This document shows, one piece after another, positions 13,716 to 17,156 of a stretch of 46,869 nucleotides of DNA (the first letter of the stretch is position 1; the number at the start of each line of letters is the position of its first letter). Where the stretch lies: positions 1 to 46,869 of the forward strand of contig CANGZU010000005.1 of the NCBI GenBank assembly GCA_947458785.1, in the 5' to 3' direction. The notes beneath the pieces were generated by a model, which was given only the letters and a program-made list of their open reading frames with translations, was not told the DNA's origin and did not search any database. The position numbers and the translations under genes are program-made. The stretch comes from Ignavibacteria bacterium. GTDB lineage: Bacteria > Bacteroidota > Ignavibacteria > Kapaibacteriales > Kapaibacteriaceae.

Positions 13716-13723
13716 CAAAATTA
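13716..13723 (-). promoter_or_regulatory. Putative -7 box for the enoyl-reductase-like gene
   Basis: TAATTTTG on the minus strand matches TAnnTTTG. It lies 30 bases before ATG 13685 and overlaps the stop codon of the upstream CpcT-like gene, which suggests the reductase is transcribed separately. Confidence 0.55.
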
Positions 13724-14356
13724 GGGCTTTTGTTTGAGGTAGTAATACGGTCCTTTGAGAGAACCGAAAACTTGTTTGTTTTCAGCCGTATATCCACGCA
13801 CCCAGAGGGCTATGGACATAGCAGAAATACTCATGGAATGAGACTCATAGGATGTACCCGCAACTTCGCTTCTGCAGGCCGTGCCGTGCGTGCCACCAAA
13901 GAACGTGGTCGCATTGCGTTGAAAGTACATCTCGCAGCCACGCATCAGGCGTAAGTCAGATGGCCCATACTCGCCAGCACGTTCTGGATTCTTCCACATA
14001 CCTTGACCATTCTCCGGCGACTTCCACACATAAACACGTATCTCGGTGATGTTGTCCTCGACGGCACGGACATTCATAACACTCTGTTGCAAAGGCGTAT
14101 CGGGCCTGGCCGCGATAAATCGTTCCACCACAAACCACGTCCCATCAGTCCGATCAAGCCAGATTCGGCGGATTTCGAGGCGTTCGTTAGCATACGTTGT
14201 GTCAACATTAGCTTGCTTTTCAGAAGAATAGCTGCCTTCAAACCAGGTTGAGAGTTCCTGCACATCGACATCGTCAGGTCTCGTCGAGATGGACCCCAAT
14301 GCAACGTTGGTTGCTGCAATTATGACAACCAATAATCGAAGTATACCAAGCATCAT
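13721..14356 (-). CDS. CpcT/CpeT-family protein with signal peptide
   Basis: 211 residues. An N-terminal hydrophobic stretch (MMLGILRLLVVIIAATNVALG) looks like a signal peptide. The rest carries the CpcT/CpeT layout: LSTWFEGSYSSEKQAN near the start, WFVVERFIA, then LRLMRGCEMYFQR, FFGGTHGTACRSEVAG (the conserved G-x-C pair region), ALWVRGYT and QVFGSLKGPYYY at the end. In cyanobacteria this calycin-fold family includes lyases that attach phycocyanobilin to phycobiliprotein cysteines. Members outside phototrophs exist and have no known role. No phycobiliprotein or bilin-synthesis gene is visible here, so I do not infer lyase activity. It overlaps mutL by 4 bp (ATGA) and is last in its operon. 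Confidence 0.8.
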   Translation of the reverse strand: MMLGILRLLVVIIAATNVALGSISTRPDDVDVQELSTWFEGSYSSEKQANVDTTYANERLEIRRIWLDRTDGTWFVVERFIAARPDTPLQQSVMNVRAVEDNITEIRVYVWKSPENGQGMWKNPERAGEYGPSDLRLMRGCEMYFQRNATTFFGGTHGTACRSEVAGTSYESHSMSISAMSIALWVRGYTAENKQVFGSLKGPYYYLKQKP

Positions 14357-16146
14357 TGCAACCGCTTTTCCAGTTCATCAAACGTAACAACCGTGTAGGT
14401 CGGCAAGCCTGACGGAGATAAATGTGAGATAGTGCACGCTCGCAGATCCTTGACGATCTGCTGCACGTGCGAAGAAGAAACATCGTGAATAGCAGAAAAC
14501 GCACGAGACCGGGCAAGGCGAATCATCATCTGCTCTTCGCGTTCCGACACATTCATTGTGACAACTTCACGCAAACTCTGGATCACATCACATATACCAG
14601 ACTCTTCATCGCCAGCGGCTACGAACCATGGAATCCCGCGCACATGAAGCACTCCATCGGCGATTTCAACATCAAACCCAAAGGATGCGATTAGCGAATC
14701 ATGCTCAGCGATCAGTGCCTGGTCTGCAGCATCAAGGTTCAAGGTAACCGGGAATAGTAGCTGCTCGGCCGAGACCTCTCCCAATCCTCGTTTCTGCTGA
14801 ATCTGCTCGAAGAATACACGCTCGAGGGCCGCAAAGAGCCTCACGACCATGATTCCATCATCATGGCGGCACATGGCAAGGCCACGTTCAACAAAGAGCA
14901 CAGAAGGAACGTGTTCTTGTGGCAACTCTGTCATCAACTGCGCATAGGCTCCGTGTGCCGCAGGTGCAATGCGGGGCTGCGTGCCCGTCGGTGCCTGACT
15001 ATACCCGAGGGATGATGGGAAAGGGGCGGGCAGGCTTCTCTCGAGGATTTCTCCCGTGAGACGGTTGACTGCTACATGACCCTGTCCAGCCCCCTGAAGA
15101 GACTGCAATGGTCGCTGTGCCAACGGCAGAAACGCCGATGGATCGGGTATCAGTTGGGCCGACGCAAGCGCCGAGGTAACGGCATGCTGAACAAGGAGAA
15201 AGATCGCACGTTCATCATCGAACTTTACTTCATGCTTCTGCGGATGGATGTTAACATCGATACGCTCGGGATCAATGTCGATCCAAATGGCGAACAACGG
15301 ATGTTGCCCCGAGGGGATGATATGCTCAAAGCACTGCGAGATGGCGTAGGCCAGGGACTTGCTGTAGATGCTGCGGCCATTGAGATATAGATACTGCCCT
15401 GTTCTGTTCTTACGCACCACACTTTGGTTGCCAACATATCCCTTGATCCAAACGCCGCCCTCGGCATGGTCAAGTGGTAGCAGGTCTTTCTCTTGTACAC
15501 TCCGCAACACGTGCTGCAGACGTTCAACCGCTGAAGCCGGCTGAACGTCCATGACAAGTGATTGGCCGTCGTAGAGTACAAACCTAATGTCAGGACGTGC
15601 TATAGCTAGTTTCTGGAGCGTCTCACTGATGTAACGAAACTCAGTAAGCGATGATTTCAGGAACTTGCGCCGAGCTGGGACATTGGCAAACAAGTTTAGC
15701 ACACTGATAGAGGTGCCAACACGCGTTGGCGTTGGCTTGTATGTTGGGATCTGTCCGGGCTGCGAAAACAGCGTCCAGCCATGTTGCTGTCCCTGTAAAG
15801 CAGTGGCGATCTCGACATCTGCGACGGCAGCAATCGAGGCCAATGCCTCTCCGCGAAAGCCCAGCGTGTGAATAGCGTGCAGGTCAGATTCTGTTGAGAT
15901 CTTGCTCGTGGCATGGCGCACAACCGAAAGCTCAAGGTCTTCCTTCGGCATACCGCTACCATTATCGACAATCTGGATGGAGCGCAAGCCCCCTTCCTGC
16001 ACGACAACCGTAATGCTCGTCGCGCCGGCGTCTATAGCGTTCTCTACCAGCTCCTTCACAACGGACTCAGGACGCTGAACAACCTCGCCAGCCGCGATCT
16101 GGTTGGCAAGATGTTCTGGCAGAATTCGAATGCGATTCTCGCTCAT
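14353..16146 (-). CDS. mutL: DNA mismatch repair protein MutL with degenerate endonuclease motifs
   Basis: 597 residues from ATG 16146, which overlaps the CrtC-like stop as ATGA. The N-terminal GHKL ATPase is complete: ELVENAIDAGA, DNGSGM, ATSKI, GFRGEALASIAAV, and the transducer NLFANVPARRKFLKS. Known MutL couples MutS mismatch recognition to strand cleavage. The C-terminal dimerisation domain is recognisable, but all three nuclease motifs are altered. DQHAxxExxxxE reads RLFAALERVFFE (first residue Arg436), the ACH/ACR motif reads ARS, and CPHGRPT reads LSPSGLPT before FDELEKRL. It is flanked by CrtC-like and CpcT-like genes in an apparent operon. Confidence 0.95.
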   Translation of the reverse strand: MSENRIRILPEHLANQIAAGEVVQRPESVVKELVENAIDAGATSITVVVQEGGLRSIQIVDNGSGMPKEDLELSVVRHATSKISTESDLHAIHTLGFRGEALASIAAVADVEIATALQGQQHGWTLFSQPGQIPTYKPTPTRVGTSISVLNLFANVPARRKFLKSSLTEFRYISETLQKLAIARPDIRFVLYDGQSLVMDVQPASAVERLQHVLRSVQEKDLLPLDHAEGGVWIKGYVGNQSVVRKNRTGQYLYLNGRSIYSKSLAYAISQCFEHIIPSGQHPLFAIWIDIDPERIDVNIHPQKHEVKFDDERAIFLLVQHAVTSALASAQLIPDPSAFLPLAQRPLQSLQGAGQGHVAVNRLTGEILERSLPAPFPSSLGYSQAPTGTQPRIAPAAHGAYAQLMTELPQEHVPSVLFVERGLAMCRHDDGIMVVRLFAALERVFFEQIQQKRGLGEVSAEQLLFPVTLNLDAADQALIAEHDSLIASFGFDVEIADGVLHVRGIPWFVAAGDEESGICDVIQSLREVVTMNVSEREEQMMIRLARSRAFSAIHDVSSSHVQQIVKDLRACTISHLSPSGLPTYTVVTFDELEKRLQ

Positions 16147-17156
16147 CGCTCCACCTGTGAAAGAATGTTGATAAGGGGCAGCCGCAGAAATGGACGTATC
16201 CATGCCGACTTCATGCGGGCAACATTCATATACTCCGACATGCCTTTGCCCACAGCCGTTCCATCAATGAACCAGTCGCTGATATAGCGCTGATAGAATG
16301 GCGAGTCTTCGCATGCAATTGAATTCGTGCATGAGACTTCATGAGGTCCTGTAGTGGGAGAAATGCCCCGTAGTCTTATGTGCCGGCTACAAAGCAGTCC
16401 CATTGCCGTGATGAACGTCTTACCGTACGTGATCTCGACATCGTGCCATGCCTTTGCCACACCATCTACATCGATCTCGTACACTTCATGTGTCGTATCC
16501 CCCGAGCGTGGTGTCGACAGAAACACGATCGTACGGTCCTGGCAATGCACCCTGCCCCAGTACCAGCCGGCAAAGTCATGATGCATCGCACGAACACCAA
16601 GGTTGTGGTCATGGTAACCGGTTGTTTCAAACGTATGGTCAACAACCACCGTCGAGCCTTCCATGAGTTGTATCGATGCAGTGGTCTGCATGCGAGGTCG
16701 AGCAAGCACCCATGCGTGCTTGTCTGACAGATCAGCGGGCAACGGATCAATGCAGCGTGTTGGTTGCCCCCTGAGTGTAACTGCAACTCGGCGTTCGTCT
16801 GTGTCACAGGGCATGTCAACGCAGGCCGTCAAGAGGCCCGTCTCGTCGACCACTATGCTGGCCCCGTCCATTTGAACACGGACTTCATCACGCGCGTAGC
16901 TTGCTGATTCCAAAGGTTGCTCAGTGAATGAGAATGCAAGTCGCACGCCGTTGTGATATACGCTTACAGCACAACCCGCAAGCATATGTTCGGGGTCGTC
17001 GAGGTACGTCGGCGACATTGGCATACCACGAAACAGAATGATAACCACTCCCCATTCACCATCATCGGAGAGTGCATCAGCATACCACCACTCGTAGGCA
17101 CCTGGGCCATCGAGATAGTGGCATCCATCATTTCGAATACCTGTTATGACTTGCAT
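16143..17156 (-). CDS. CrtC-family carotenoid 1,2-hydratase-like protein
   Basis: 337 residues, no signal peptide. The N-terminal signature GPGAYEWWYADALSDDG followed by VVIILFRGMPMSPTYL is characteristic of the CrtC/hydroxyneurosporene synthase family. A second block DHNLGVRAMHHDFAGWYWGRVH also fits. In purple and green sulfur bacteria CrtC adds water across the terminal 1,2 double bond of acyclic carotenoids, making the hydroxyl later methylated or glycosylated. A glycosyltransferase of the type used for carotenoids is divergently encoded 62 bp away, which supports a shared pathway, but no phytoene synthase, desaturase or cyclase is in the window. Related family members may act on other lipids. 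It is the first gene of the operon with mutL and the CpcT-like gene. Confidence 0.78.
   Translation of the reverse strand: MQVITGIRNDGCHYLDGPGAYEWWYADALSDDGEWGVVIILFRGMPMSPTYLDDPEHMLAGCAVSVYHNGVRLAFSFTEQPLESASYARDEVRVQMDGASIVVDETGLLTACVDMPCDTDERRVAVTLRGQPTRCIDPLPADLSDKHAWVLARPRMQTTASIQLMEGSTVVVDHTFETTGYHDHNLGVRAMHHDFAGWYWGRVHCQDRTIVFLSTPRSGDTTHEVYEIDVDGVAKAWHDVEITYGKTFITAMGLLCSRHIRLRGISPTTGPHEVSCTNSIACEDSPFYQRYISDWFIDGTAVGKGMSEYMNVARMKSAWIRPFLRLPLINILSQVER

Follow-up and report, generated by a model that had tools for sequence, protein, structure and literature searches.

Sequence comparison confirms that the MutL encoded in the window (the whole stretch of DNA that was analysed, 46,869 nucleotides in length) lacks the usual nuclease site, and that the loss was co-ordinated across all of its motifs. 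The organism belongs to Kapabacteria (Candidatus Kapabacteria; phylum Bacteroidota). The loss is no artefact of assembly and no isolated case, and it is wider than an earlier note on this DNA supposed. In the alignments it is common to most of the sampled Bacteroidia-type families and to several other Kapabacteria.

The protein is clearly a MutL. Its product matched TIGR00585 (MutL) with 487 bits against a cut-off of 180 in searches with Pfam/NCBIfam profiles, and the GHKL ATPase, transducer and MutL_C dimerisation domains that define the family all scored above their curated cut-offs. The features of the gene are as follows, with residue numbers referring to the protein.

14353 to 16146, minus strand: mutL, 597 aa plus stop, a full-length single intact ORF
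15148 to 16134, minus strand: N-terminal GHKL ATPase and transducer domains (residues 5-333)
15046 to 15069, minus strand: linker motif VNRLTGEI (residues 360-367), found only in Kapabacterial MutLs
14356 to 14934, minus strand: C-terminal dimerisation/regulatory domain (CTD), as modelled (residues 405-597)
14806 to 14841, minus strand: degraded motif I, RLFAALERVFFE, replacing DQHAxxExxxxE (residues 436-447)
14749 to 14766, minus strand: beta-clamp motif position, EQLLFP (residues 461-466)
14506 to 14514, minus strand: degraded motif II, ARS, replacing AC[KR] (residues 545-547)
14398 to 14421, minus strand: degraded motif III, LSPSGLPT, replacing xCPHGRPx (residues 576-583)

A CpeT/CpcT-family gene (13721-14356, minus strand) lies directly 3′ of mutL with a 4-base overlap, and this type of gene is kept near mutL in 17 Kapabacterial loci. 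Upstream lies an ORF of 337 aa (16143-17156, minus strand) without a Pfam match. The VNRLTGEI motif, located in the flexible linker, occurs in 21 of the 22 MutLs of the window's family, in 42/70 endonuclease-plus MutLs and in none of 80 named loci; it is possibly a docking site.

The endonuclease motifs were compared in an alignment of 110 sequences, the window's MutL and 109 others from its order, in which six catalytic or ligand positions were scored (D, H and E of motif I, C of motif II, C and H of motif III). Only one of the six, a Glu, is retained; motif I has lost its Asp and His, motif II its Cys, and motif III its Cys and His. Where DQHA(X)2E(X)4E is expected the protein reads RLFAALERVFFE, ACR/ACK is replaced by ARS, and CPHGRP by LSPSGLPT; the C-terminal FxR is also absent, the protein ending in DELEKRLQ, in which DELEKRL is present. 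In the same alignment E. coli MutL, a known non-nuclease, scored 0/6 and Pseudomonas MutL 6/6. The ATPase residues are retained (E32, N36, D61xGxG, GFRGEA and K304) and are invariant across all aligned MutLs. The earlier note's central observation, that all three endonuclease motifs are degraded beside an intact ATPase, is thus borne out, and with one position in six remaining the usual nicking site is gone; its reading of motif II as ARS was right, although the canonical form is ACR/ACK and not the ACH that it named.

The note had also held that such co-ordinated losses argue against a sequencing error, and the relatives agree. Members of the same genus, from other genomes, read RPxxAAERVFFE-like, ARQYA and HTPFGQPT at the same sites, and because these changes are alike and fall in the same places, the degraded motifs cannot be put down to chance or to sequencing. 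The single intact ORF, the same pattern in relatives and the low omega values given below rule out a sequencing or assembly error or a pseudogene.

It is conceivable that other residues now make up a metal site and that the CTD still cuts. E442 and E447 are still present, and H575, which immediately precedes the former CPHGRP site, is a His in nearly all MutLs of the window's family. Against this, the motif II and III positions offer no Cys ligand, the motif I Asp is an Arg in the window's subclade, the His at the H575 position is missing from Bacteroidia-type MutLs, and the residues on which zinc binding and catalysis are known to depend (PMC10366529, PMC2744016) have been lost. Such a relocated active site is accordingly very improbable.

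The predicted model of the window's CTD (AF2 pLDDT 92.8) has an intact MutL CTD fold and matches MutL C-domains along its full length, including those of NgoL (Z 19.5, rmsd 2.6, 182 aligned), B. subtilis MutL (Z 15.6) and E. coli MutL (1x9z, Z 14.8). In closely related endonuclease-less pairs among the relatives of the window's MutL, which itself lacks a sufficiently near relative to be paired with, omega is about 0.06-0.15 in the CTD and about 0.02-0.12 in the NTD where dS is finite (some dS values being saturated). Strong purifying selection acts on both MutL domains in these relatives.

MutS is likewise intact in the window's genome, with its mismatch-binding GDFYE, its Walker motifs (GPNMSGKSSYLRQ and LLDEVGRGTATF) and a terminal clamp motif, QVSLFE; mutS was found in 39/40 relatives, including 22/23 genomes of the window's family. 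The clamp motif of MutL itself differs from Qxh(L/I)xP by a Q-to-E change at the first position, the remaining positions being kept (EQLLFP). Endonuclease-less MutLs otherwise keep this Gln (63/63 Bacteroidota-type, 17/17 other Kapabacterial and 21/22 in the window's family), and the window's MutL is alone among the 22 of its family in starting the motif with Glu; its clamp contact may therefore be weaker.

These data bear on the suggestion that mismatch repair is impaired here, or that MutL is kept only for recombination control or for short-patch or excision repair. In its favour, endonuclease-less genera show more CTD divergence for a given NTD divergence than nuclease-keeping ones do (median ratio 2.54 versus 1.90), and recJ (TIGR00644), one of the usual mismatch repair exonucleases, was not found in the window's draft genome (2.13 Mb, 97.9% complete), a search in which 13/14 control genomes gave a match. 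Nevertheless, impairment, one of the outcomes that the earlier note had allowed for, is unlikely: purifying selection on the two MutL domains is strong in the relatives, MutS keeps its motifs, and mutS is present in all but one of the relatives.

The loss is not peculiar to the window's MutL. The window's family comprises 23 genomes in the search, 22 of them with a MutL, and many of the genomes surveyed are metagenome assemblies. All 22 of these MutLs have lost the site, to graded extents: DQHAAHER of motif I is partly retained in genera g4 and g5, DQR or DQQ is found in most others, and Arg occupies the Asp position in the window's subclade; the Cys of ACK and that of CPHGRP are altered in every MutL of the family readable there. 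Further Kapabacterial losses occurred in genera g16, g29, g36, g37 (family f6), g44-g46 (f8) and g49 (f9). The earlier note had proposed dating the loss by alignment with related MutLs, and on an N-domain tree, in which Kapabacteria form one clade (SH-aLRT 99) and the window's family another (96), the endonuclease state changes 7 times. Since outgroups from Pseudomonadota, Bacillota, Armatimonadota and Ignavibacteriota have an intact site, we infer that the direction of change is loss. Two members of the order have broken mutL frames, L077 (G122) being split into two ORFs and L014 (G014) containing an in-frame TAA, through either assembly error or real loss.

Beyond the order, a profile of the window's family fetched 80 named MutLs, a list skewed towards query-like sequences, of which 16 scored 6/6 and the remainder, all Bacteroidota-type, scored below 6/6. 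Because of that skew, an even draw across the phylum was also scored. Here 6/6 was found in members of the same class and in families f24, f27, f29, f31, f32 and f42, with one exception in f17, and three or fewer in families f25, f26, f28, f33-f37, f39-f41 and f43-f45; these codes are nameless, and the labels Bacteroidia, Rhodothermia and Chlorobia for them are our own inference. Among 297 aligned MutLs, 138 keep six ligands, none keeps five, one keeps four, six keep three, 77 keep two, 63 keep one and 12 keep none, so that 158 of them keep at most three. Hardly any MutLs fall between six and three ligands, which shows that the site either stays complete or disappears as a whole. The general rule on which the earlier note relied, that MutLs not belonging to the MutH group are mostly nucleases, therefore fails in Bacteroidota, since the site is missing throughout the window's family, in several other Kapabacteria and in almost every Bacteroidia-type MutL sampled. 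No report of missing MutL motifs in Bacteroidota was found in the open-access literature, and specialists may already know of them; a 2014 survey by Banasik and Sachadyn reportedly covered about 200 MutLs and may mention such cases.

Transfer of a Bacteroidia-type C-domain into the window's family was considered and rejected. In a C-domain tree built without the motif columns (135 columns, poorly resolved), endonuclease-less groups fall mostly on separate long branches and the window's family stays apart from the Bacteroidota group, and in the N-domain tree the Kapabacteria stay together.

Other known sources of the nick were sought. The earlier note had suggested looking for mutS, mutH-like and dam genes; beside the intact MutS, domain searches found no MutH in the window's genome or its genus, and no Dam-class adenine methylase (PF02086) in the window's genome or in 22/23 genomes of its family. 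MutH-like domains occur in 6/392 genomes of the phylum, five of them in Sau3AI-sized ORFs of 463-514 aa, and in 7/123 genomes of the order, where they do not track MutL site loss; within the window's family the only match is a Sau3AI-sized 463-aa ORF in one genome. G012 and G007 (loci L035 and L036) encode ORFs of 463-465 aa with two MutH-type domains each in a Sau3AI-like layout, and G012, which carries this Sau3AI-like gene, is also the only genome of the family with a D12/Dam-class methylase. NucS was found in 0/23 genomes of the family and is scattered elsewhere. The MutH, Dam and NucS searches cover those families, with unrelated partner nucleases outside their reach. No second MutL or stand-alone CTD was detected in the window's genome, which has a single MutL, and each genome surveyed has one strong CTD, G015 having a second, marginal match. 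With the MutL site lost and MutH missing, both textbook sources of the nick are thus absent.

The main rival explanation is that a separate, still unrecognised nuclease, recruited and activated by MutL, nicks as MutH does in E. coli. This is a tentative possibility with several points to recommend it: MutL is under strong selection even though its usual site cannot cut, E. coli MutL (0/6) provides a precedent for a nuclease-free MutL that drives a partner, the motifs drop out all together, as expected once another incision route arises, and a MutS2 with an Smr domain is encoded in the window's genome. Stretched to the whole phylum, with one undiscovered MutL-activated nuclease serving most Bacteroidota and adopted several times in Kapabacteria, each time freeing the MutL site from selection, the idea becomes slightly less likely. 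Against a partner nuclease, MutH-like domains are nearly absent phylum-wide and sit mostly in Sau3AI-sized ORFs, NucS was not found in the window's family, and MutS2 is equally present where relatives kept the MutL nuclease. Nor is any nuclease evident among the genes conserved beside mutL in the family. In named, mostly Bacteroidota loci, a gene that we take to be rhomboid-like accompanies mutL in 51/74 cases and one with a membrane-spanning N-terminus in 29/74, the latter presumably an EEP-type protein; neither the rhomboid-like nor the EEP-type genes lie near Kapabacterial mutL, and a partner encoded beside mutL was rejected.

The reading that we prefer, at a probability of about one half, is that this is a functional nuclease-free MutL, whose site had already disappeared in the common ancestor of the window's family and disappeared again elsewhere in Kapabacteria and in Bacteroidia-type lineages, and that repair would start from pre-existing breaks in the nascent strand. 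MutS would still recruit MutL, which in its ATP-bound form, held near the replication clamp, would serve purely as a matchmaker and ATP switch. It would then allow a UvrD-type helicase and exonucleases to load at breaks that newly made DNA already contains, such as Okazaki-fragment ends, the leading-strand 3′ end and ribonucleotide nicks; helicases of the UvrD family are present in the window's genome. Replication would thereby provide both the nick and the strand signal, and cutting by MutL would be dispensable and could be lost. Repair from natural discontinuities has been proposed for MutH-less bacteria beside direct cutting by MutL (PMC8744996). As the window's MutL is apparently unable to cut, a start at such discontinuities is the simplest reading, and more probable than either functional decay or a relocated active site. 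The Glu in the window's clamp motif and the failure to find recJ in the draft genome count against it.

Among known systems, the MutL endonucleases of MutH-less bacteria (B. subtilis, A. aeolicus, N. gonorrhoeae and P. aeruginosa) resemble this case in domain order, in their intact ATPase and in having no MutH, and the modelled CTD shares its fold with those of B. subtilis and N. gonorrhoeae (Z 15-20), but the window's MutL has lost all of the endonuclease motifs. E. coli-type MutL has a nuclease-free CTD of the same fold; unlike the MutSLH/Dam system, however, the window's genome showed neither MutH nor a Dam-class methylase, and its MutL arose by an evolutionarily separate loss that retained the AA-x-ER...E framework. 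Eukaryotic MutL-beta (human MLH1-PMS1, yeast Mlh1-Mlh2) is a retained MutL-family complex without nuclease motifs, beside which a second MutL complex supplies the nick, whereas the window's genome yielded only a single MutL CTD. Bacteroidia-type MutLs share the condition, with motifs I-III also degraded, MutH nearly absent and the clamp-motif Gln kept, yet theirs too is a separate loss, and the CTD of the window's MutL falls outside their group.

Bacteria without MutH are said, in reviews and primary papers, to depend on the nuclease of MutL itself (PMC9159922, PMC8744996, PMC8034640). The present survey indicates that much of a major phylum has neither, so that the choice and opening of the new strand there would need another explanation, and the product name "mismatch repair endonuclease MutL" would be misleading for site-less Bacteroidota proteins. 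The repeated, all-or-none losses within one order provide about seven natural contrasts in which to seek a compensating factor, and the old question of whether replication nicks alone can direct repair becomes testable in cultivable Flavobacterium or Bacteroides.
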